Assembly: GCA_026985095.1 (NCBI GenBank)
Contig: JALSQW010000007.1
Location: 1-64,000, forward strand
Reading direction: 5' to 3'
Source: Acidimicrobiia bacterium
GTDB lineage: Bacteria > Actinomycetota > Acidimicrobiia > Spongiisociales > UBA5794
Length of the DNA: 64,000 nucleotides
Shown here: positions 4,532-20,266 of the stretch, in pieces
How the letters are laid out: the number at the start of each line of letters is the position of its first letter
Numbering within the stretch: position 1 is the first letter of the stretch
Notes under the pieces: model-generated
What the model was told of the DNA's origin: nothing
Databases searched by the model: none
Seen by the model: the letters and a program-made list of their open reading frames with translations, nothing else
Program-made: the position numbers and the translations under genes

Positions 4532-5407
4532 TCAGCGGGCGTCGTGATCCTCGACGCCCCCGCCCGCACAGAGCACGTCCCGCACCCGGCGAGTCGCCAC
4601 CGAAGGAACCGACGGGTTCCATGCCACGGCGATCTCCGCCTCCGAGATGTCGACGACGGGCACGAACGCCACCCCGGACGGCCGGTAGAACCGACCCACC
4701 GACGCCGCCGTGATGCACATGGCCCGTCCCTGGGCCACGACGGCGAGCATCTCCTCGACGCTGTGCACCATCGGGCCCCACACCGGCGAACGACCATCGG
4801 GACGCGGGTCGACGCACCAGAACTCGCGATGGGTGGGGAGGTCCACGATCGGCTCGTCCCCGAGCTCACCGATCGACAGCTCTCGACGGTCGGCGAACCG
4901 ATGACCGCGAGCGAACGCAGCCACCCTCGGCTCTCGCCACACCACCCGGTGCTCCACCGCCGCGGGACCCAGCGGCAGCGGCAACACGCACAGATCGATC
5001 TCGCCGTCGACCAGCACCGAGGTCCGCTCCACCCAATCGACCCGACGAAGCTCCACCGGAGCCTCCAGCTCCCCGAGCCGATCCGACACGGCCGCCGGCA
5101 GGGGCGGAACGAACCCGACCCGGACGACCCCCGTGTCGGCCCTGGCGGCCTGGCGGGTGACGACCACCGCCCGCTCGGCCCGTTGGAGCAGCGCCCGCGC
5201 CTCGGTGGCGAAGGCGCGACCGGCCGCCGTCAGACGGATCCCGCGGCCGTCCCGCTCGACCAGCGGGACCCCCACGAGCGCCTCCAACCGACGGACCTGC
5301 TTGGTCAGGCCCGGCTGGGACAGATAGAGCCGTCGGGCGGCACGCCCGATGTGCTCCTCCTCGGCGACCGTCAAGAACGCCTTCGCCAAACGCAGGTCCA
5401 GATCCAT
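4532..5407 (-). CDS. LysR-family transcriptional regulator
   Basis: MDLDLRLAKAFLTVAEEEHIGRAARRLYLSQPGLTKQVRRLEALVGVPLVERDGRGIRLTAAG: canonical LysR HTH; divergent from the YjjI-like gene. Confidence 0.92.
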   Translation of the reverse strand: MDLDLRLAKAFLTVAEEEHIGRAARRLYLSQPGLTKQVRRLEALVGVPLVERDGRGIRLTAAGRAFATEARALLQRAERAVVVTRQAARADTGVVRVGFVPPLPAAVSDRLGELEAPVELRRVDWVERTSVLVDGEIDLCVLPLPLGPAAVEHRVVWREPRVAAFARGHRFADRRELSIGELGDEPIVDLPTHREFWCVDPRPDGRSPVWGPMVHSVEEMLAVVAQGRAMCITAASVGRFYRPSGVAFVPVVDISEAEIAVAWNPSVPSVATRRVRDVLCAGGGVEDHDAR

Positions 5408-5422
5408 GCCGCCAGGTTATCG

Positions 5423-5436
5423 GTTCCCGACGGAAC
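5423..5436. promoter_or_regulatory. Candidate LysR operator half-sites (GTTCC-N4-GGAAC) in the divergent intergenic region
   Basis: gttcc cgac ggaac inverted repeat located 16 bp upstream of the LysR start. Confidence 0.3.
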
Positions 5437-5499
5437 GCCAATGGACATCGGGGCTCCGTGAGCGCATCATGGAACGGAGACGTCATCGGAGGCTGCCGC

Positions 5500-7050
5500 G
5501 TGAACATGGACGAATTCCAGGCCGGTGCCCGCCGGATCGTCGAAGACCCGACCCTCACGTTCCATCAGCGTCGCCACCATCTCGCCTACCTGGCCGAGAA
5601 CGCCCTCGAGTACCCGCAGCTCTCGGACGCGGCCGCCGAGGCACTCGAGAAGCGGGTCATCTGCGACCTGTACGAAGGTCCCGCCCCGTATCGGGCCCGC
5701 TACATCCTCCCCGACTACGCCAAGGCACTCCGGCAGGGCTCGGAGTTCCTCGAACTCGACCCGCCCGACGACCTCGACGACGCCCTCACCTTCCTCCTCG
5801 TCCTCTACGGCCACGTCCCGTCGATCACCGCGTACCCGGTCTACTTCGGGGACCTGGACGAGGTCCTCGCCCCGTACGCCGACGGCGTCTCCGACGACCA
5901 CCTCTACCGGTCCCTCCGTCGGTTCTGGATCGCCCTCGACCGGCTCTTCCCCGACGCCTTCGCCCACATGGACCTCGGGCCACGCGACGGACGCCTCATC
6001 CGCACCATCTTCCGTATCGAACGGGAACTCGCACAGGTCGTCCCCAACCTGACCTTCAAGGTGCATCCAGACCTGACCCCCGACGGCCTGATCCGCGATG
6101 CGGTCGAAACGGTCTTCGTCAATGGCAAGCCCCATTTCGTGAACCACCCGCTCATGGTCCGCGACCTCGGCGAGGACTACGCCGCGGTGAGTTGCTACAA
6201 CTCGCTCAAGATCGGCGGCGGCTCCCACACCCTCGTCCGGCTCGACCTCAAGGAGGTCGCGCTCCGTCATCAAGGCGGCATCGAGTCGTTCTTCACCGAC
6301 ACGCTGCCGCGCTACGCCGAGCTGACCGCCGAGATCATCGAGGCGAGGATCCGCTACCTGGTGGAGGAGGCCCGCTTCTACGAGCACGACTTCCTCGCCG
6401 CTGAAGGCCTCATCTCCCTCGATCGGTTCTCGGCGATGTACGGCGTCTACGGTCTCGCCGAGGCGGTGAACCTGCTCATGGAGCACCAGGGCAAGAGCGG
6501 TCGCTACGGCCACGACGCCGAGGCCGATGAACTGTCGTACCGGATCACCCGGGCCCTCAAGGACTTCGTCGGCAGCCGCGAGATGCCCTACTGCGAGGGC
6601 AACGCCGGCCGCTGCTTCCTGCATTCGCAGTCCGGCATCGATTCCGACGTGGGCGTCACCGCCGGCACCCGCATCCCGATCGGCGACGAACCCGAGATGT
6701 TCGACCACATCGCCACCGTCACACCCCACCACGATCTCTTCGACGCAGGGATCTCGGACATCTTCCACGTCGAGGACACCGCCCGAGGCAACCCCCAGGC
6801 GATGGTGGACATCATCCGTGGCGCCCTCGAAGGCGGCATGCGGGACTTCACCTTCAACCTGGCGACGAACGGCTTCATCCGGATCACCGGCTATCTCGTC
6901 CGTACGTCCGACCTCGAAGGGTTCGACGAGCACGGCGCCCGACACGGCAGCACCACCTTCGCCGCCGGGTCGGTGAAGAACTCCCACGTCACCGAACGCA
7001 ACCTCAAGCGGGTGATCGCACGTGAGCTCACGCCGCGGCCTGGTCAATAG
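5500..7050 (+). CDS. yjjI: YjjI-family glycyl radical enzyme
   Basis: Candidate active-site Cys context VSCYNSLKIGGGSHTLVRLDLK and C-terminal glycyl-radical-like motif NGFIRITGYLVRTSDL; directly followed by a YjjW-like activase. GTG start at 5500 has a GGAGG Shine-Dalgarno (track ORF starts 5458). Confidence 0.82.
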   Translation: MNMDEFQAGARRIVEDPTLTFHQRRHHLAYLAENALEYPQLSDAAAEALEKRVICDLYEGPAPYRARYILPDYAKALRQGSEFLELDPPDDLDDALTFLLVLYGHVPSITAYPVYFGDLDEVLAPYADGVSDDHLYRSLRRFWIALDRLFPDAFAHMDLGPRDGRLIRTIFRIERELAQVVPNLTFKVHPDLTPDGLIRDAVETVFVNGKPHFVNHPLMVRDLGEDYAAVSCYNSLKIGGGSHTLVRLDLKEVALRHQGGIESFFTDTLPRYAELTAEIIEARIRYLVEEARFYEHDFLAAEGLISLDRFSAMYGVYGLAEAVNLLMEHQGKSGRYGHDAEADELSYRITRALKDFVGSREMPYCEGNAGRCFLHSQSGIDSDVGVTAGTRIPIGDEPEMFDHIATVTPHHDLFDAGISDIFHVEDTARGNPQAMVDIIRGALEGGMRDFTFNLATNGFIRITGYLVRTSDLEGFDEHGARHGSTTFAAGSVKNSHVTERNLKRVIARELTPRPGQ

Positions 7051-7876
7051 GACCCTCCGGTTCTCCACCGTGGATGGACCCGGCAACCGGTTCGTCGTGT
7101 TCCTCCAGGGCTGCAACTTCACCTGCATCAACTGCCACAACCCGTACACGATCGCCGAATGCAACTCCTGCGGCCTGTGCATCGATCCCTGCCCTCCGGA
7201 CGCTCTCGCCCTCGTAGGGGACTCGATCGTCGTCGACCGTGCCGCCTGCACCCTCTGTGACGTGTGCATCGATGTGTGCCCCTACGACTCGACGCCGCTG
7301 GCCCGGGAGCTGACGGTCTCCGAGATCGTGACCCAGATCCGCGAGACGGCCCGGTTCCTCTCCGGCGTCACCGTCTCGGGCGGCGAGGCCACCCTCCAGG
7401 GGGAGTTCGTCGCCGAGCTGCTCGGTGCGATCAAGGCCGACCCCGAGCTGTCGCGCCTGACGACCCTGGTCGACTCCAACGGCTCGGCGCCTCGGAGCGT
7501 GTGGGATCTGCTGCTGCCGGTCATGGACGGTGCGATGATCGACCTCAAGGCCCTCGACCCCGACATCCACGTCCGTCTCACCGGGAGAGGCAACGACGCG
7601 GTCCTCGGATCGATCCGGTACCTGGCCGCGGCCGGGAAGCTCCATGAGGTGCGCCTGCTGATCGTTCCCGGCTACAACGACGATCCCACGACGATGAAGC
7701 GCACGCTGGCGTGGCTCAGGAACATCGATCCGGACATGACGGTCAAGGTCATCGGCTTCCGGGCCCACGGGACCCGGCCCGAGATGTCGTGGCTCACCGA
7801 TGCCGACCCGGACCGGATCATCGAGCTCGGCGAGCTCGCCGTCTCGGCCGGCTTCCGCGACGTCGCCGTCCTCTGA
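7022..7876 (+). CDS. yjjW: YjjW-family glycyl radical enzyme activase (radical SAM, extra 4Fe-4S clusters)
   Basis: STVDGPGNRFVVFLQGCNFTCINCHNPYTI (CX3CX2C), ferredoxin-like CNSCGLCIDPCP and CTLCDVCIDVCP, TVSGGEATLQ, LVDSNG; overlaps the upstream GRE gene by 29 nt. Confidence 0.9.
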   Translation: MSSRRGLVNRTLRFSTVDGPGNRFVVFLQGCNFTCINCHNPYTIAECNSCGLCIDPCPPDALALVGDSIVVDRAACTLCDVCIDVCPYDSTPLARELTVSEIVTQIRETARFLSGVTVSGGEATLQGEFVAELLGAIKADPELSRLTTLVDSNGSAPRSVWDLLLPVMDGAMIDLKALDPDIHVRLTGRGNDAVLGSIRYLAAAGKLHEVRLLIVPGYNDDPTTMKRTLAWLRNIDPDMTVKVIGFRAHGTRPEMSWLTDADPDRIIELGELAVSAGFRDVAVL

Positions 7877-7907
7877 GGCCCCACCCCGGCATCCCGAGGT
7901 GGGGCCT
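7876..7907 (+). terminator. Hairpin after yjjW-like gene (10-bp stem, 12-nt loop, no strong U-tract)
   Basis: aggccccacc-ccggcatcccga-ggtggggcct, perfect complementary arms immediately after the stop. Confidence 0.5.
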
Positions 7908-7982
7908 GCGGCCCGACGTTCCGGGATGGCCGTGCGACCCGTCCTCCTGCCGAGAACGACTCCGGACGATACGATGGTCGAC

Positions 7983-10565
<2,583 letters not shown>

Positions 10566-10599
10566 GCCGATCGTCGCTCCTGCGACTCGTTGATCGACA

Positions 10600-11072
10600 C
10601 GCACGCCGCATCGAACGGGCTGGTATCTCCACCGATGGGGAAGCGGTCCGACTGCGCTGATCGCCGTCGACCCCTCCGTCCAGTGGGCCGTTCGCTGGGT
10701 ACCGGCGTCGCCCGCTGAGAAGGTCGACTGGCTTCGATTCGGCCCCGGTACCGGAGGTCCAGTCGTCGTAGAGCGCGACGATCTCATCGAACCTGCCCTG
10801 CGGCTAGCCGAATGCGACGAACACGTACGGACCGGACGTCCCCGACTGGGTCGCCGTCCCCCGTCGGGAACCGGGATCGTCGAACCGTCGGGAAGCGGCA
10901 GGTCGCTGCCGATGTCGAGCGAGCTCCCGTCGTCATCCTCGACCGAGATGTTCACGGATCCGTCGTCGTTCCAATCGACGTCGACATCGCCGCCGACGTC
11001 GGGACTCTCCAGCACCCGACCGAGGGGCGCCATCACGGCATCCGTGACCCTCGACCTGAGGTCGAGGGTCAC
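10600..11072 (-). pseudogene. Frameshift-scarred hypothetical gene (two offsetting frame shifts, in-frame TAG in the recovered middle frame)
   Basis: Reverse frame A: VTLDLRSRVTDAVMAPLGRVLESPDVGGDVDVDWNDDGSVNISVEDDDGSSLDIGSDLPLPDGSTIPVPDGG...SQSTFSAGDAGTQRTAHWTEGSTAISAVG. The middle is coherent only in frame B: TATQSGTSGPYVFVAFG*PQGRFDEIVALYDDWTSGTGAES. Left end approximate. Confidence 0.55.
11044..11072. repeat. Perfect 14-bp-arm palindrome with 1-nt centre
   Basis: gtgaccctcgacct g aggtcgagggtcac. Confidence 0.85.
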
Positions 11073-11207
11073 ACCCGCAGGTCCCGTCGATCCACGGCAC
11101 CGCACCGAACTAGTTCGTTCGACCCATTTCAGAATGCTTCTTCATCACCGGGCGCGGCCGACCGACGACAGGAGAAGCCGGACATCATCGATGTGGGAGG
11201 GGAACCC

Positions 11208-14200
11208 TTGGTCTTCCGTCAGCTGACGATCTTCGCCGTCGCCTTCTCGATCGTGGCCGCCATCGCCGCCCCATCGGCAGCCGCCATGACGACCAGCGAC
11301 AACGAGCCGGATGCGCTCCCCGCGTCCGTCGTCGCCGTCACCTGCAACGCCGGTACCGTCACCGTCGACGGCAACGCGACCGACGTCACCTGTGACGGAA
11401 CCGGCACCCTCGAACTCCGCACCGCCCCGTCGATCGACACCATCGTCCTCGACGGCCCGACGATCGGCACCCTGGACGTGCGAGCCCCCGGCTCCCTCAC
11501 CGTCACCGGAAGCGTCGAGGCCGAAACCATCCGCGTCGAAGCGGGTGACCTCCAGGTGACCGGCACGATGACGGCAGAGACGATCGCGCTCTCCAGCCCC
11601 AGCCAGCTCTCGGTCTCCGCTTCCCTCACCGCGGCCGCCTCGATCGACCTGTTCGCTGCCGTCGTCGGCATCGCCCTCCATCCGACGAGCGTCATCGACG
11701 CGCCAGTGGTCACCATCCGTGGCGGCAACGTCTCAGCCGCCGGGGCGATCCGTGGCGACACCGTCACACTCACCTCTCCCGCCTCGGGAGAGACGATCGT
11801 CACCGGCGACATCACCGCACCCGGTGGACACATCGTCATCGATGGCGGCGCCGTCGGCATCCTCGGGGCCGACGCCGACATCGGCGCCGGCGCCGTCGTC
11901 GACGCCGCCGGAGAGTTCGGCGGCGGACGGATCGCCATCGGCGACTCGGCCGCGTCGACGCTCGTCGGCGCCGACACCCTCATCACGGCAGACGCCACCT
12001 TCGAGGGTGACGGTGGCACGATCCGCATCTGGTCGGACGACACGACCACCAGCTTCGGCACGATCACCGCCCGCGGCGGACCCCGGGGAGGGAGCGGCGG
12101 GCAGGTGGAGGTGTCGGGGCGGCGCGCCTCCAACGCCTACGGCGACATCGACGTGACGGGCATCGACGGGCCCGACGGCGAGGTGCTCCTCGACCCGCTC
12201 ACCTTCATGCTCCTCCCCCAAGGGGTCCTCCTCCAGGTCACCGCGATCGACGACCTCGACGCCGTCTCGTTCAAGGCGTCGCCGTCCCCGATCCTCGACT
12301 CCGGCGCCTTCGTCGGCCAGTACTTCTGCGACCTCGTCGGCATCGCGTCGTGCGGAACGCCGACGTCGCCGAGCCTCACCGACTATCGCCTCCGCTACTG
12401 GTCGACGAACACGATCATCGGGCTGCTGACCGGTCCGCTCAACCCCTCCAAACAGCTCCGAGACCGCTTCAAGCCCCTCAGGGTCCGCGGTTCGGTCACG
12501 TTCCTCCAACCGGCGACCCTCGAGTCCTTCGAAGGCGACATCCAGCTCGAAGCCGTCTTCGGGATCACCCTGTTGCATGGCCTGATCGACGGTGACGAGC
12601 TGTACGACGCGGTCGGCATCCCCCTCGACTGGATCCCGCAGCCCTTCACCCCCGACGGCGAGCTGCAGCTCGACAACCAAGGGCCCGGCGACACGTTCTC
12701 GGCCGCGACGCCGTTCACGATCGTCAGCATCGGCGACATCACGACCGCCGGCGGCGACGTCACCTTCGACGCCGGCGTCAACATCCCCGCGGACGAGATC
12801 CAGGCTTGGATCGAGCAGATGGTGGACGAGACCGGCGAGTTCAGCCTCGCGGACCTCGCCGCCATGCGGGTCGAGGACATGATCGCTGCCGCGGTCGCCG
12901 ACGCCGCCGGCAACGACGACATCCAAGCGATGGTCGACGATCTCACCGCCATGGCGAACCTGCTGTGCGGCAACTGCGTGCCCGACCTCGTCGAACCGCT
13001 CGGCAACGTGATCGTCCCGGCCGACGGGACCAGCTACACGCTGGCGAACGTCACCGCCATCCCGCCGCTCCTCGACGCCCTCGGAGTCACCGTCCCCGCC
13101 TGGGTCGACGACCTCACCGACACCCTCGACGAGATCGACACCTATGCATCGTGGATCCCCAGCGGCACCGACCTCGTCGACGCCGCCCTCGGCGGCATCT
13201 CGATCGACGTCCTCGGCCTCCCCGGCGACGTCACCACGGTGTGCTGGGGCATCGAGAGCGGCGGCAAATGCTACAGCCTCGTCGACCCGCCGATCGCCGG
13301 TGTCCCCGGTGAGGTCACGTCGGTCTGTGTCGACTGGAACTGGCTGCCGCCATATCAATGCTTCGACTACGACGACGTCTGCAACCTCGGGCTCGGCACC
13401 TGGAGCGGAGGGGAATGCTGGACGATCCCTCCCCACGACGGCACCGAGATCGGCTACGACACCGAGTGCAACCTCGGGACCGGCTTCTGGCAGGACGGCG
13501 AGTGCTGGACGATCCCTCCCGGCACAGTGACGATCCCCGGCCTCCACGACGCCGACCCGTCGATCCCACCATCGTTCGCCTCGCTCATCTCCGAGACCCT
13601 GGCGCCGCTCATCGCCGACGGCATCGCCGACCTCATCGACAGCGCCTCGATCGCGGCCGGACTCGGGCCGGTGCCCGACTCCTTCCAGCTTCCTCCCCTC
13701 TCCCTCGCCGACCGAACCGGCGGGGCCCTCCTCTACGTCGCCGGAGACGTCGACGCCCGCTCCGGCACCGTCACCCTGTCCAACGCCTCGACCGGACTCA
13801 TCGCGATCGCCGACACCATCTCCGGCGACCGGATCGTCGTCGATGGGCCCGACGCGGCGCTGCGGAACGCCCGGTACGACCTGGGAACCGTCCTGTCCCT
13901 GGCCGGCGTCGATCAGGATCTCGTCGGCGACACGGGCTCCGCCGTCCTCCAGGCCGACGAGATCGTCATCGCGACCGGCGACGGGATCGGCACCGACGCC
14001 GCGCCCATCACGCTGCGCCCGACCGGTACCGACCTCGACCTGACCGTCTTCGACACCGGCGACGGGATCCGGCTCCGCTTCGACCGGAACGGCACCGTCG
14101 CCGGCACGATCGACGGCGCCGCAACCGCCCGGATCGAGATCGACGCCGACACCGACCTGGGCGCCATCGACGCGGACCTCCCCTCCGACCAGAACCTCGA

Positions 14201-16901
14201 CGTCCGGCTCGACGGCACCGTCACCCTCCCCGGCACCATCTCCGCCGCCGCCGTCAACGTCACGGGCGACGCCGGTGACGACACCGCCCGGACCGGCCTC
14301 TACCCGACCGTGCCCGTCGACATCGACGGTGGTGCCGGCACCGATACCCTGGCTCTCCAGCTCGGTGACGTGACCCCCGTGCAGGACACCTACGGCAGCC
14401 TGCTCGTCGACGGGACCGCCGGGCTGACCTACCGCGACATCGAGTGGATCACCGGCCTGGCCCCCACGGTGCTGACGCCCGTCGCCCCCGTGACGGTCCC
14501 CGAAGGAAGCGAATGGCCGCTCCTCGCCCGCTGGATCGACTGGGGCGCCGCGTCGTGGACCGTCGCCGCCGACTGGGGCGACGGCACCGACCAGGCCGTC
14601 GTGCGGGATCGCTCCGCATCCGAAGCCGACACCCGCATCGTCGAAACCACCGTCACCCGGACCTTCACGGACGACGGCGTCCGCACCGTGGCGCTGGCCG
14701 TGACCGACAACCAAGACGGGATAGGCGCGTCCACGACCCTGCACGTGGAGGTGACCAACGTCGCGCCGACGGTGAGCGCGCCCGACGCCCAGCGCATCGC
14801 CGAAGGCGACGCCGCCCAGGTCGCGGCGACGTTCACCGACCCCGGTGGCGACGACACCCACACGGCCGCCATCGACTGGGGCGACGGCACGTCGACCGAT
14901 CCGACCGTGCTCGAGACCACCGGAGCCACCGACGGCTCGGTGACCGGAACCCACGTCTACGCCGACGATGGCACCTACACCGTCCAGATCTGCGTCACCG
15001 ACGACGACGGCGCCACCGGATGCGACACGACGACGATCGACGTGACCAACCGAGTTCCGACCGTCGACGCCGGCGGCGACCGGTCCCTCGCCGAAGGTGA
15101 CCTGTGGTCCCTCGATCCGGCCGTGTTCCACGACGCCGGCACCGCCGACACCCATGTGGCATCGGTCGACTGGGGCGACGGCACCATCGATGCCGCCACC
15201 GTCACCGAAGCTCCCTTCGGGCCGCCTGGTGACGTGGTCGGCGCCGGCGGAGCCGTCGACGCCGGCCACGTCTACGCCGACGATGGCACCTACGGGGTCC
15301 AGGTCTGCGTCACCGACGACGACGGTGCCGGAAGCTGCGACACGCTCGAAGCCCAGGTCGCCAACGTCCTGCCCGTCGTCGGCGTACCGTCGGGCAGCGG
15401 CGACGAAGGCGCCGTCGTCGGGTTCGACGCCGCCATCCGCGACGCAGGCATCGCCGACGTCCTCACCGGCACCGTGGACTGGGGCGACGGCACGCCCCCC
15501 GTCGACGCCGAGCTCAGCGCAGGAACCGCACCGGGGAACTGGACGCCCACCGCGACACACGTCTACGCGGACGACGGCACGTACACGATCACGCTGTGCG
15601 TCACCGACGACGACGCTCCCGACGTTCCGGTCTGCACCGCCGGATCCGCGACCATCGACAACGTCGCACCCGCCCTCGAGCCGGTCCAGCCGGTGACCGG
15701 CGTCGAAGGGCATCCGGTGACCGCCACCGTGCCGTTCACCGACCCCGGCTCCGGTGATACGTTCACCGCCACCGTCGACTGGGGCGACGGCACAACCGCC
15801 GAGCTGGCCGACGCCACCATCGACGACGGAACCGGATCGGTGGCCCTCCCCGCCCACGTCTTCGTCGAGAACGGGACGTACACCGCGACCGTCTGCGTCC
15901 AAGACGACGACGGCGCCGAAGCATGCGTCGGCGTGGCGTTCGAGATCGCCAACGCCGTTCCCATCGTGTCGGTTCGGCCGGCGGCAGGCGTCGAAGGCGC
16001 CTCGACCGTCCTCGCCGGGGTCACGTCCGACGACGGCGCCGACGATCACCTCGTCGTCACCGTCGACTGGGGCGACGGGGCGGTCGACCGCTTCGACGTC
16101 CCCGGCCACGGCGGCCGCCGCATCGGACCCGAGCACATCTACGCCGACGATGGCACGTACCCGATCGAGGTCTGCGTGGTCGACGACGACACAGACGCGA
16201 CCTGCGCGACGACCGACGCCACCATCGCCAACGCCGAGCCACAGGTCCAGATCGGCCGGCCCGGTAGCGTCGTCGAAGGGGACGAGACGACGATCCGGAT
16301 CCTCATCGACGACCAGGGTCCGGTCGACGTGCACACGGTGACCGTCCACTGGGGCGACGGTACCGCCGACGTCCTCCCGGGCGACGCGGGTGACGCCGTC
16401 GCTGCGGTCCACCGCTACCGGGCTCCGGGAAGGGCGACCGTCGTCGTGTGCGTCGACGACGGCGACGACACCGTCTGTCGCACCTTCGACCTCGACGTGG
16501 ACAATGCACCGGTGGTCGTCGAGACGGGGCCGTTCAGCGTCGGTACCGCAGGTTCGGTGTCGATGCTCGAAGCGTTCAGCGTCCTCGACGGCGGCCTTCC
16601 GACCGACGTCACGGTCGACTGGGGCGATGGAACACCCGCAGAGACCCTCGCCGCAGGCGCCACCCCCGCTCACGTGTTCGACGACCCAGGACGCTACGAG
16701 GTCGAGGTCTGCGCCTCCGACGACGACGGTACCCCGGCGTGCGAGACGACCGTGGTGGAGATCGCTCCTCAGATCGTCACGTCGGGAGTCGAGATCCCGG
16801 GCGACGACAGCCTTGCCCCGACCTGGATGTGGCTCCTCGTCCTGGTCGCCTCGCTGCTGGGTGCCGGCATCGCCGCCCTCCGCCTCCGCAACGGCGACTG
16901 A
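11208..16901 (+). CDS. Giant secreted/cell-surface protein: FHA-like beta-helix region, Cys-pair repeats, eight PKD repeats, C-terminal TM anchor
   Basis: Signal peptide VFRQLTIFAVAFSIVAAIAAPSAAA from TTG 11208 with GGGAGGGG upstream; GGTIRIWSDDTTTSFGTITARGGPRGGSGGQVEVSGRRASNAYGDIDVTGIDGPDGEVLLDP resembles FHA-type TPS proteins; eight WGDG motifs at ~100 aa spacing; C-term TWMWLLVLVASLLGAGIAALRLRNGD. Confidence 0.85.
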   Translation: MVFRQLTIFAVAFSIVAAIAAPSAAAMTTSDNEPDALPASVVAVTCNAGTVTVDGNATDVTCDGTGTLELRTAPSIDTIVLDGPTIGTLDVRAPGSLTVTGSVEAETIRVEAGDLQVTGTMTAETIALSSPSQLSVSASLTAAASIDLFAAVVGIALHPTSVIDAPVVTIRGGNVSAAGAIRGDTVTLTSPASGETIVTGDITAPGGHIVIDGGAVGILGADADIGAGAVVDAAGEFGGGRIAIGDSAASTLVGADTLITADATFEGDGGTIRIWSDDTTTSFGTITARGGPRGGSGGQVEVSGRRASNAYGDIDVTGIDGPDGEVLLDPLTFMLLPQGVLLQVTAIDDLDAVSFKASPSPILDSGAFVGQYFCDLVGIASCGTPTSPSLTDYRLRYWSTNTIIGLLTGPLNPSKQLRDRFKPLRVRGSVTFLQPATLESFEGDIQLEAVFGITLLHGLIDGDELYDAVGIPLDWIPQPFTPDGELQLDNQGPGDTFSAATPFTIVSIGDITTAGGDVTFDAGVNIPADEIQAWIEQMVDETGEFSLADLAAMRVEDMIAAAVADAAGNDDIQAMVDDLTAMANLLCGNCVPDLVEPLGNVIVPADGTSYTLANVTAIPPLLDALGVTVPAWVDDLTDTLDEIDTYASWIPSGTDLVDAALGGISIDVLGLPGDVTTVCWGIESGGKCYSLVDPPIAGVPGEVTSVCVDWNWLPPYQCFDYDDVCNLGLGTWSGGECWTIPPHDGTEIGYDTECNLGTGFWQDGECWTIPPGTVTIPGLHDADPSIPPSFASLISETLAPLIADGIADLIDSASIAAGLGPVPDSFQLPPLSLADRTGGALLYVAGDVDARSGTVTLSNASTGLIAIADTISGDRIVVDGPDAALRNARYDLGTVLSLAGVDQDLVGDTGSAVLQADEIVIATGDGIGTDAAPITLRPTGTDLDLTVFDTGDGIRLRFDRNGTVAGTIDGAATARIEIDADTDLGAIDADLPSDQNLDVRLDGTVTLPGTISAAAVNVTGDAGDDTARTGLYPTVPVDIDGGAGTDTLALQLGDVTPVQDTYGSLLVDGTAGLTYRDIEWITGLAPTVLTPVAPVTVPEGSEWPLLARWIDWGAASWTVAADWGDGTDQAVVRDRSASEADTRIVETTVTRTFTDDGVRTVALAVTDNQDGIGASTTLHVEVTNVAPTVSAPDAQRIAEGDAAQVAATFTDPGGDDTHTAAIDWGDGTSTDPTVLETTGATDGSVTGTHVYADDGTYTVQICVTDDDGATGCDTTTIDVTNRVPTVDAGGDRSLAEGDLWSLDPAVFHDAGTADTHVASVDWGDGTIDAATVTEAPFGPPGDVVGAGGAVDAGHVYADDGTYGVQVCVTDDDGAGSCDTLEAQVANVLPVVGVPSGSGDEGAVVGFDAAIRDAGIADVLTGTVDWGDGTPPVDAELSAGTAPGNWTPTATHVYADDGTYTITLCVTDDDAPDVPVCTAGSATIDNVAPALEPVQPVTGVEGHPVTATVPFTDPGSGDTFTATVDWGDGTTAELADATIDDGTGSVALPAHVFVENGTYTATVCVQDDDGAEACVGVAFEIANAVPIVSVRPAAGVEGASTVLAGVTSDDGADDHLVVTVDWGDGAVDRFDVPGHGGRRIGPEHIYADDGTYPIEVCVVDDDTDATCATTDATIANAEPQVQIGRPGSVVEGDETTIRILIDDQGPVDVHTVTVHWGDGTADVLPGDAGDAVAAVHRYRAPGRATVVVCVDDGDDTVCRTFDLDVDNAPVVVETGPFSVGTAGSVSMLEAFSVLDGGLPTDVTVDWGDGTPAETLAAGATPAHVFDDPGRYEVEVCASDDDGTPACETTVVEIAPQIVTSGVEIPGDDSLAPTWMWLLVLVASLLGAGIAALRLRNGD
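13236..13530 (+). repeat. Four tandem Cys-pair/Trp-rich micro-repeats inside the giant protein
   Basis: TTVCWGIESGGKCYSL / TSVCVDWNWLPPYQCFDY / DDVCNLGLGTWSGGECWTIPP / DTECNLGTGFWQDGECWTIPP. Confidence 0.7.
14470..16780 (+). repeat. Eight tandem PKD-type domains (~100 aa period)
   Basis: ADWGDGTDQ, IDWGDGTST, VDWGDGTID, VDWGDGTPP, VDWGDGTTA, VDWGDGAVD, VHWGDGTAD, VDWGDGTPA, each followed by HxYADDGTYTVxVCVTDDDG-like strands. Confidence 0.85.
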
Positions 16902-17054
16902 TCGCTCGGCTTGCACCCTGGCCGGTCCCGGCTGCATGCTCGGCCGTCTGAGCGGGCGAGAAGGGAACGAGTTCGACCGACGCGGGAGCCGCAGACCGAC
17001 GCGCCACGCTGCTCGCTGCCTTGATCCCGGTCGCCGCCGTCGGGTTCTCCATCG

Positions 17055-17469
17055 GAGGGGACTCTTCGACGACCGTGCGATCGAGGAGCATTGCCGCCGG
17101 CTCGTCGATCAGTACCAGGTGAAGACACCGGCGCTGGACACTCCCGTCGAGAGCCTGTCGGGCGGCAACATCCAGAAGCTCATCGTCGCTCGCGAGCTTT
17201 CCGCCCGACCCAACGTGCTGGTGGCATCCCAGCCGACCCGCGGCGTCGACATCGGAGCCGCCGAGTACATCCACGCTCAGCTCGTAGCCGAGCGTGACCG
17301 TGGCACGGCGGTGGTGGTGATCTCGGAGGATCTCGATGAGGTGCTGGCGCTGGCCGACCGCATCGCGGTCATCTACGAGGGGCGGATCGTCGACATCGTC
17401 GAGCGGGCCCGCGCCGGCCGCGAAGCCCTCGGCCTGATGATGGCCGGCCACCACCCCGCCCAGCGATGA
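17055..17469 (+). pseudogene. C-terminal remnant of a sugar/nucleoside-type ABC transporter ATPase
   Basis: [114 protein letters not shown]: second-domain signature and Walker B-like region only; no Walker A and no full-length frame upstream. Confidence 0.65.
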
Positions 17470-18506
17470 GTTCGCGCGAGTATGGGGGGATGACTGCGAC
17501 GACGCCCGGGCTCGTGTGTTCCCACCATCACCTCTACTCGGCGCTCGCCAGAGGCATGCCGGCTCCGCCCGAGACCCCCACCTGTTTCCGCGAGATCCTC
17601 GAGCAGGTGTGGTGGCGGCTGGATGCCGCCCTCGACATGGAGATGATCCGATGGTCGGCGATGCTCGGTGCCCTCGAAGCCCTCGAGCACGGCACCACCG
17701 CCATCATCGACCACCACGCATCACCCAACGCCATCGAAGGCTCCCTCGACGTCATCGCCGCAGCCTGCGCCCAGGTCGGGATCCGGGTCGCCTGCGCCTA
17801 CGAGGTCACGGACCGCAACGGTCCCGATGGTGCCCGTCGAGGGCTCGCAGAGAACGAGCGCTTCCTCCGTTCCGGTGGACGCGGCTGGGTCGGAGCGCAC
17901 GCCTGTTTCACGCTGTCGGACGAGACCCTCGACGCGGTCGTGGGTCTCTCCGAGGACCTCGGCACGGGGGTCCACATCCACGTCGCCGAGGGCCCCGAGG
18001 ACATCGATGCGGGCCGGCGACTCGAAGGCCGGACCCGAGACTCGTGGCTCCTCGCGCACGGCGTCCACCTCGACCGCCACCTCGACGGCACGATCCTGCA
18101 CAACCCCGAATCGAACATGAACAACGCGGTCGGGTACGCCCGCCCGATTCGCTTCGCCAACCCGGTGGCGCTCGGCACCGACGGCATCGGCGGCGACATG
18201 CTGACCAGCTTCCGGGCCGCCTATCTGCGCATGCGCGAGGACGACGTCACCGCCTCACCTGAGACCGCCTGGGGGTGGCTCGGAACCGGGTGGGATCTGT
18301 TCCCCGAAGCACGCGACGACGTGGTCACCTGGTCCTACGACCCGATCGACCCGTGGCATCTCGCCTTCACCCCGGGAGTGCGGCCGCTTCGGGTCGTCGT
18401 CGACGGGACGGTCGTCCTCGACGACAACGGCCCCACGTTGGTCGATGCCGCCGAGATCCGCGCCAAGGCCGCCGAGCAAGCTCGGCGTCTCCACGCGAGA
18501 CTGTGA
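17466..18506 (+). CDS. ssnA: SsnA-like amidohydrolase lacking the usual N-terminal region
   Basis: TPGLVCSHHHLYSALARGM...WWRLDAALDMEMIRWSAMLGALEALEHGTTAIIDHHASPNAIEGSL...HIHVAEG...NPESNMNNAVGYA...ALGTDGIGGDM matches the SsnA pattern from the metal-binding HxH onward; ATGA overlap with the ATPase remnant. Confidence 0.75.
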   Translation: MSSREYGGMTATTPGLVCSHHHLYSALARGMPAPPETPTCFREILEQVWWRLDAALDMEMIRWSAMLGALEALEHGTTAIIDHHASPNAIEGSLDVIAAACAQVGIRVACAYEVTDRNGPDGARRGLAENERFLRSGGRGWVGAHACFTLSDETLDAVVGLSEDLGTGVHIHVAEGPEDIDAGRRLEGRTRDSWLLAHGVHLDRHLDGTILHNPESNMNNAVGYARPIRFANPVALGTDGIGGDMLTSFRAAYLRMREDDVTASPETAWGWLGTGWDLFPEARDDVVTWSYDPIDPWHLAFTPGVRPLRVVVDGTVVLDDNGPTLVDAAEIRAKAAEQARRLHARL

Positions 18507-18508
18507 CC

Positions 18509-20266
18509 ATGCCCGACGTCCCTCCGCTCACCCCGCTGCCACTCGATCTGCTCACGCGTCGCATCGACGAGGAGTGGCGAACCCGGAAACGGATCTTCGA
18601 TCTTCCCACCGCCCGGATCTGGCGTCCCGACGACGACGTCGACCTCGGTTTCGAGTTCCTGGGTCGCCCCGCGGCGACTCCTCTCGGGCCGGCGGCGGGT
18701 CCCCACACCCAGATGGCCCAGAACATCGTCCTCGCCTGGCTCGCCGGCGCACGGCTGTTCGAGCTCAAGACCGTGCAGGTGCTCGACGAGCTGGACATCG
18801 CTCGGCCGTGCATCGACATGGAGACGATCGGCTACAACATCGAGTGGAGCCAGGAGCTGCGCGTCCCCCAGTCGCTGGAGGAGTACGTCAAGGCGTGGAT
18901 GATCATCGAGATGCTTCGCCGCTGGGAACCGCTGGCCGATCATCTCGGTGACGATCCGGGACCGCACGTGTTCGACATGTCGGTGGGTTACGACCTCGCT
19001 GGGATCTCCGGCGACAAGGTCACCGGCTTCATCGAGTCGATGATGGACGCCTCCGCCGAGATCGACCGGCTCCGTCCGCTCATCGCCGAGCCGTTCCGGA
19101 GGTTCGCCGATCTCGACTTCCCGAGCCGGATCGCCGACACCGTGACGCTGTCGACGTTCCACGGCTGCCCCCCCGACGAGATCGACGCGATCACCCGCCA
19201 TCTCATGGACCGCCACGGGCTCGACGTGATCGTCAAGCTCAACCCGACCTTGCTGGGCTTCGCCCAGGTCGACGCGATCGTCCACGACGTGCTCGGCTAC
19301 GACGAGGTCAAGCTCGTCGAAGACGCCTTCGATGCCGACCTCCAGATGGACCGTGCCATCGAGCTCATCGGCGACCTTCGCGAGCACGCCGCCGCCACGG
19401 GGCGGCGTTTCGGGATCAAGCTCACCAACACCCTGGTGGTGGCCAACCACAAGGGGTTCCTCCCCGACGACCCGATGTACCTGTCGGGCCCGCCACTGCA
19501 TGTCATCTCTTCCACGCTGTTGGGTGAGCTGGCGCGGCGACTTCCGTCGGTGCTGATGATCCCGGGCCACGACGGCGACGTTCAGGTCAGCTTCTCGGCC
19601 GGGGTGACCAGGGACAACGTCGCCGACACGCTGGCGATGGGGGTGGCGCCGGCGACGATGTCGACCGACCTCCTGAAGCCCGGCGGGTACGGCAGGATCA
19701 AACCGATGCTGGCCGCGCTCGCTCGAGAGATGCGCGATGCGGGCGTCTCGGACCTGGCCGGATGGCAGGAACACCGGCGGAGACTCGCCGTCGAGCAGGG
19801 TCGGCACGATGAGATCGACCGGCACGTCTCCGCGATGCTGCACGGCGAAGAACGGGACCGGTACGCCGAGGAAGGAACGTCGAAGCGACCCCGTCGGGTC
19901 GAGCATTCGCTCCAGATGTGGGGGTGCGTCGCGTGCAACCTGTGCGTGACGGTCTGCCCGAACGACGCGGTCTTGAAGGTCCCGACGCCCGAAGGGGCCG
20001 CGATCGAGGGACGTTGGCAGTACCTGGTCTTCGGTGAGCTGTGCAACGAATGCGGGAACTGCATGGTGTTCTGCCCCGAAGACGGCGATCCGGCCATGAT
20101 CAAGCCGCGCCTATTCTTCGACCGGGAGCGCTTCGAAGCGGCCGACGGTCAACGGTTCCTGATCGACGTCGACCCGACGGTGCGGGTGACCGCGGCACCG
20201 GGATGGGAGCCCGAGCTGCCGGCCCTGACCCAAGTGGCGGTCGGCTCCGACGGCCTTCCTTTCTGA
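18509..20266 (+). CDS. YgfK-like iron-sulfur protein (DHOD-like N-terminus plus C-terminal 4Fe-4S), shortened form
   Basis: ATPLGPAAGPHTQMAQNIVLAWLAGARLFELKTVQVLDELDIARPCID...DMSVGYDLAGI...VTLSTFHGCPPDEIDAI...VKLNPTLLGFAQV...TDLLKPGGY, then CVACNLCVTVCP and CNECGNCMVFCPEDG; ~585 aa. GTG 18503 is an alternative start. Confidence 0.8.
   Translation: MPDVPPLTPLPLDLLTRRIDEEWRTRKRIFDLPTARIWRPDDDVDLGFEFLGRPAATPLGPAAGPHTQMAQNIVLAWLAGARLFELKTVQVLDELDIARPCIDMETIGYNIEWSQELRVPQSLEEYVKAWMIIEMLRRWEPLADHLGDDPGPHVFDMSVGYDLAGISGDKVTGFIESMMDASAEIDRLRPLIAEPFRRFADLDFPSRIADTVTLSTFHGCPPDEIDAITRHLMDRHGLDVIVKLNPTLLGFAQVDAIVHDVLGYDEVKLVEDAFDADLQMDRAIELIGDLREHAAATGRRFGIKLTNTLVVANHKGFLPDDPMYLSGPPLHVISSTLLGELARRLPSVLMIPGHDGDVQVSFSAGVTRDNVADTLAMGVAPATMSTDLLKPGGYGRIKPMLAALAREMRDAGVSDLAGWQEHRRRLAVEQGRHDEIDRHVSAMLHGEERDRYAEEGTSKRPRRVEHSLQMWGCVACNLCVTVCPNDAVLKVPTPEGAAIEGRWQYLVFGELCNECGNCMVFCPEDGDPAMIKPRLFFDRERFEAADGQRFLIDVDPTVRVTAAPGWEPELPALTQVAVGSDGLPF

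Follow-up and report, generated by a model that had tools for sequence, protein, structure and literature searches.

In this study, we analyzed a window of 64,000 nucleotides (the whole stretch of DNA considered here) from a deep-branching actinobacterium, in which a giant gene with a TTG start encodes a predicted surface protein of 1,897 amino acids. The gene, its domains and its borders are listed in Table 1. A genome search revealed orthologues in two other metagenome-assembled genomes (MAGs) of the family (80% and 71% identical), one of which was full-length (G016) and the other split over two contigs (G001). The TTG at 11208 was taken as the start because the three orthologues share its ribosome-binding-site context and, in G001, a stop codon in frame lies immediately 5' of it.

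Table 1. Coordinates of the giant gene, its segments and the bordering genes in the window
Feature	Position	Strand	Basis
Xanthine dehydrogenase-type gene, left border of the insertion	7800..10565	+	Synteny
Ribosome-binding site GGGAGGGGA, upstream of the TTG start	11195..11203	+	Sequence; kept in G001, nearly so in G016
Whole gene	11208..16901	+	Sequence; orthologues L002/L022+L021 (G001), L003 (G016)
Sec-type signal peptide, residues 1-26, without twin arginine	11208..11285	+	Sequence, hydropathy; hydrophobic leader kept in orthologues
N-terminal beta-solenoid, residues 39-190	11322..11777	+	AlphaFold model
FHA/TPS-type beta-helix module, residues 230-340 (WSDDTTTSFGTITARGG..GGSGGQVEVSG...LLDP)	11895..12227	+	Sequence comparison
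Middle region, residues 341-780	12228..13547	+	Without known relatives; AlphaFold low confidence
Four Cys-pair motifs (e.g. CNLGTGFWQDGECWTIPP), residues 679-766	13242..13505	+	Cys positions
Second beta-rich stretch, probable beta-solenoid, residues about 848-1058	13749..14381	+	AlphaFold
Eight PKD domains, residues 1091-1855	14478..16772	+	PF18911, WGDG motifs, Cys list
C-terminal TM helix and RLRNGD tail	16821..16898	+	Hydropathy; conserved in orthologues
Nucleoside-type ABC transporter operon remnant	16902..17469	+	Comparison with G001
Amidohydrolase gene, right border of the insertion	17466..18506	+	Synteny

Domain architecture

The open reading frame, its coordinates and the order of its domains were as the initial annotation had described them. 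This included the eight PKD domains, which appeared as eight PF18911 (PKD_4) stretches (5e-64 in Pfam) and eight WGDG motifs (residues 1123, 1224, 1322, 1425, 1525, 1621, 1715 and 1805), with a Cys pair in seven of the eight, as well as the single C-terminal transmembrane (TM) helix with a short tail, since hydropathy peaked at about residues 1872-1893, directly ahead of RLRNGD. The other peak coincided with the signal peptide at residues 1-26.

Residues 27-229 were predicted to form a beta-solenoid, with a Cys pair at 46/62. AlphaFold modelled the solenoid (residues 39-190) with a pLDDT of mostly about 90-98, but only about 63-74 near its C terminus; neither Pfam nor NCBIfam gave a match to it. 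The C-terminal half of the N-terminal model, the FHA/TPS-type module included, was of low confidence. In a Foldseek search with this model, the top structural matches were the TPS secretion domains of EtpA and HMW1, although these matches were weak and their E-values not significant (best E 0.063). Scans of the N-terminal and middle parts against PHROGs and NCBIfam gave no meaningful match. The middle region contains the most conserved stretch of the protein (residues 351-400, 94-98% identical in the orthologues); its AlphaFold model had a mean pLDDT of 39.6, and a structural search with this low-confidence model gave no usable match. The Cys-pair stretch is divergent among the orthologues (omega about 0.5), and the second beta-rich stretch was modelled with a pLDDT of about 70-85 over residues about 937-1030 only.

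The FHA/TPS-type module and the missing TPS pathway

FHA-type beta-helices normally belong to bacteria with two membranes and a dedicated export pore. The initial annotation had recognized the signature of such proteins over the N-terminal ~350 residues. We compared segments of the protein with three alphaproteobacterial TPS proteins (from Pseudosulfitobacter, Azospirillum and Rhizobium). Residues 230-340 gave z = 24, 16 and 22, respectively, against 300 shuffles, with real alignment scores of 176-225 against shuffle maxima of 69-84, and reversed copies scored 54-78, not above the best shuffles. On the other hand, residues 27-200, 341-780 and 830-1090 showed no clear homology in the shuffle and reversal test against TPS proteins; for residues 27-200 and 830-1090 the resemblance was at the level of composition only, with shuffled or reversed controls scoring nearly as high or higher. 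Since these other segments fail the shuffle test, the homologous part shrinks from ~350 to ~110 residues (230-340), and residues 27-229 have no convincing TPS match.

The sequence comparisons show clear homology of residues 230-340 to the beta-helix of FHA/TPS exoproteins. With a 69-residue query (268-336), tblastn matched 34 plasmid records, all from Proteobacteria, at 42-53% identity, and the diagnostic positions WSD, GG.GG.VEVSG and LLDP aligned without gaps across this 69-residue core. The annotations under the matches were 'filamentous hemagglutinin N-terminal domain', 'ESPR-type extended signal peptide' and 'MBG domain' proteins, together with one 'hypothetical protein', and several records were unannotated at the matched site. 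The module also matched EtpA in PDB (4.5e-7). No relative was found in viral contigs. A right-handed beta-helix of the FHA type is therefore indicated for residues 230-340 by their sequence, the model of this part being of low confidence.

The features that normally accompany this module were looked for as well. The TPS domain PF05860 (Haemagg_act), which the initial annotation had suggested checking, gave no match in the whole protein at E up to 1 or in residues 27-345 at E up to 10, whereas it lies ahead of the module in all three diderm relatives examined (6e-24 to 6e-33). These values come from direct hmmscan with diderm positives, which was used in place of a genome search for PF05860 whose controls were silent. 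Each of the three diderm records also has a ShlB gene, which in the two with annotation is the neighbour of the exoprotein gene. ShlB/FhaC (PF03865) was not found in the window genome by the same search that was positive in all three diderm records; Omp85 was not found there either, with seven diderm controls positive, nor in G001, G016 or G140. Thus, the absence of a TpsB-like gene, noted before for the window, extends to the whole genome, as judged, like the absence of the TPS domain and of Omp85, from profile searches and draft genomes. NPNL/NPNG is a conserved motif of the first TPS subfamily, whose role is described elsewhere (PMC5422565, PMC10284417). A motif scan did not find NPNG/NPNL in residues 1-400, which is weak evidence because the scan also missed the motif in the Azospirillum TPS protein.

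The crystallised fragment of EtpA covers 67-447, and the module lies at its C-terminal end (PMC10284417). Given this position and the lack of a PF05860 match, the window protein appears to keep the distal part of an EtpA-like region, with a different N-terminal solenoid replacing the TPS part. The protein falls outside the TpsA family, because the two defining features of that family, the TPS domain and the TpsB partner, were both searched for and not found; it would behave as a surface fibre that contains an FHA-type part.

Distribution and genomic neighbourhood

Among 395 genomes of the class, the N-terminal profile was found in G000, G001 and G016 only, and the architecture in three. The profile of the module recovered one extra, diverged protein of 315 amino acids in the class (G140, 5.9e-8); among 397 genomes across the phylum, with a first pass that scores a limited number of candidates per genome, it recovered the window genome and one chance match (G613), in which the reading frame resembles a type III pantothenate kinase. 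The same profile found two diderm records outside its building set (2.9e-45 and 1.8e-40), which shows that the search works and not that it reaches far, because both are close relatives of the profile rows. The architecture is thus rare in Actinomycetota. In a scan of public genome contigs, the carriers were an Acidimicrobiia MAG and an Actinomycetota MAG, HyVt-587. In our literature search, with subscription papers mostly outside its coverage, neither FHA in Acidimicrobiia nor a combination of FHA and PKD in Actinobacteria came up. Judging from the rarity of the module in the genomes sampled, it may have descended from diderm TPS/FHA exoproteins by horizontal transfer. The giant gene itself is under purifying selection (dN/dS 0.22-0.62 in every segment, Nei-Gojobori).

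In five relatives (G008, G013, G003, G024 and G007), the amidohydrolase gene directly follows the xanthine dehydrogenase-type gene, with matches 0-21 bp apart; both genes are of purine type. The window genome has the giant gene between the two. In G001 the space between these borders holds a nucleoside-type ABC transporter in addition to the giant gene (on two contigs, with the order inferred); the same pieces are spread over two contigs in G016. In the window, the transporter is reduced to a remnant in which the 5' end of the permease gene is fused to the 3' end of the ATPase gene at about 17048/17049. Compared with G001, about 4,055 bp are missing, and the junction has a 2-bp TC overlap. The role of the giant gene is probably independent of this transporter, because the gene stays open despite the loss.

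Several other genes of the neighbourhood were observed. A frameshifted remnant of a lipoprotein gene occupies 10583-10994 (-); this gene is open in G001 (L034:7069-7641 -), and G016 has a short gap at its position, with no room for such a gene. A YjjI-like glycyl radical enzyme gene (5161-7873) adjoins a radical-SAM gene, which may encode its activase. A 4Fe-4S enzyme, perhaps dihydropyrimidine dehydrogenase-like, is encoded beside the amidohydrolase (18515-20263), and this pair is adjacent in most of the relatives examined.

Alternative explanations and proposed working

Glycine-rich beta-solenoid repeats may resemble each other by composition, and this is indeed all that residues 27-200 and 830-1090 share with TPS proteins. 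For residues 230-340, however, convergence of this kind is very improbable, as their alignment scores lie far above those of shuffled and reversed copies, the three diagnostic motifs align over the 69-residue core without gaps, and the 34 plasmid matches come from Proteobacteria without exception, with FHA-type exoproteins making up nearly all that are named. It is even harder to believe that the architecture arose by misassembly or by contamination from a diderm. Although both public carriers are MAGs and one copy is split over two contigs, orthologues are present in three separate genomes with conserved flanking genes, and the GC3 of the orthologues is near 0.9, like that of host genes. Neither chance nor contamination accounts for the gene, because the two other MAGs of the family hold orthologues that are 71-80% identical and under purifying selection.

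With regard to function, the protein might capture nucleosides, nucleotides or extracellular DNA at the surface, as the receptor of a purine/nucleoside uptake module that includes the adjoining ABC transporter and the catabolic enzymes. The G001 permease gene lies closely 3' of the giant gene on the same strand, the transporter precedes the amidohydrolase in G016, and the insertion splits the xanthine dehydrogenase-amidohydrolase pair. However, about 4 kb of the transporter is gone from the window genome, in which the giant gene is still open and conserved, and no nucleic-acid- or nucleoside-binding domain could be recognized, which makes such a receptor improbable; a link to nucleoside uptake is possible, and weaker than that to adhesion or ligand capture. 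A less remote, but still unlikely, alternative concerns attachment: the C-terminal TSGVEIP-TM-RLR could be a non-canonical sorting signal by which a sortase links the protein to the cell wall, rather than a membrane anchor. The genome has two sortase genes, and T[SA]GVE[IL]P is conserved ahead of the TM helix in the orthologues, yet neither sortase gene is near the giant gene and a regular-expression search of the last 60 residues found no [LIV][PA]x[TS][GA] sorting motif, LPXTG and LAXTG included.

We consider it fairly probable that the protein is a Sec-exported, TM-anchored surface fibre of a monoderm acidimicrobial actinobacterium, with a PKD spacer and a solenoid head that includes a TPS-derived module, likely serving adhesion or ligand capture. 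Sec would export the chain, and the C-terminal helix would stop in the membrane and anchor the protein. The eight PKD domains, seven of them with a Cys pair, could then form a spacer that spans the cell wall, whereas the solenoids, the middle region and the FHA module would make up an outer head exposed at the surface. The initial annotation had proposed an FHA-type stalk reused without TPS export. The FHA module, the undetected TPS domain, TpsB and Omp85, and the C-terminal anchor agree with this idea. As for the stalk, judging from the topology, the PKD array is the more likely one, and the FHA module would be placed in the membrane-distal head. By analogy with FHA, HMW1 and EtpA, the most likely function would be adhesion or ligand capture via the head and its strongly conserved middle region.

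For TPS systems, nucleation of beta-helix folding at the surface is attributed to the TPS domain, and the export of FHA-type beta-helices, like their folding, to this domain together with TpsB (PMC5422565). The FHA module of the window protein would be kept without the TPS recognition domain and would work without a TpsB pore, and the N-terminal solenoid, found at the position expected for a TPS domain, may nucleate folding instead. More tentatively, and with a chance that we rate somewhat below even, a TPS-derived beta-helix would here have been uncoupled from type Vb secretion, folding after Sec export on a replacement solenoid nucleus as part of the head of a PKD-stalked fibre. If so, the beta-helix itself would need neither the TPS domain nor TpsB.

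Work on FHA-type beta-helices treats them as the cargo that a two-partner system carries across the outer membrane. A natural protein with part of the beta-helix but neither the TPS domain nor TpsB would separate what is needed for folding from what is needed only for crossing an outer membrane, and would show how adhesin modules are passed between diderm and monoderm bacteria.

Compared with known systems, the window protein shares with TpsA exoproteins (FHA, EtpA, HMW1 and the MBG-domain TpsA of Alphaproteobacteria) the WSD...GG.GG.VEVSG...LLDP module, 42-53% identical over about 69 residues, and the character of a large, predicted secreted protein. Unlike them, it has neither PF05860 nor NPNG/NPNL, no TpsB/Omp85 was found in its genome, and it has a C-terminal TM anchor and eight PKD domains. 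A second comparison is offered by the PKD-array surface proteins of Acidimicrobiia, which are likewise large, predicted to be secreted and equipped with multiple PKD domains. Twenty-eight of 149 relatives match the window protein, most of them in the PKD part only; the PKD-array proteins examined (L023-L026) have other domains around their arrays, and a search of their genomes gave no FHA module. Finally, the membrane-anchored protein of 315 amino acids in G140 (L027:4652-5596), from the same class and also without PF05860, carries a diverged copy of the module (z about 9; E = 5.9e-8), whereas it differs from the window protein in having an N-terminal TM helix, no PKD domains and no middle region.
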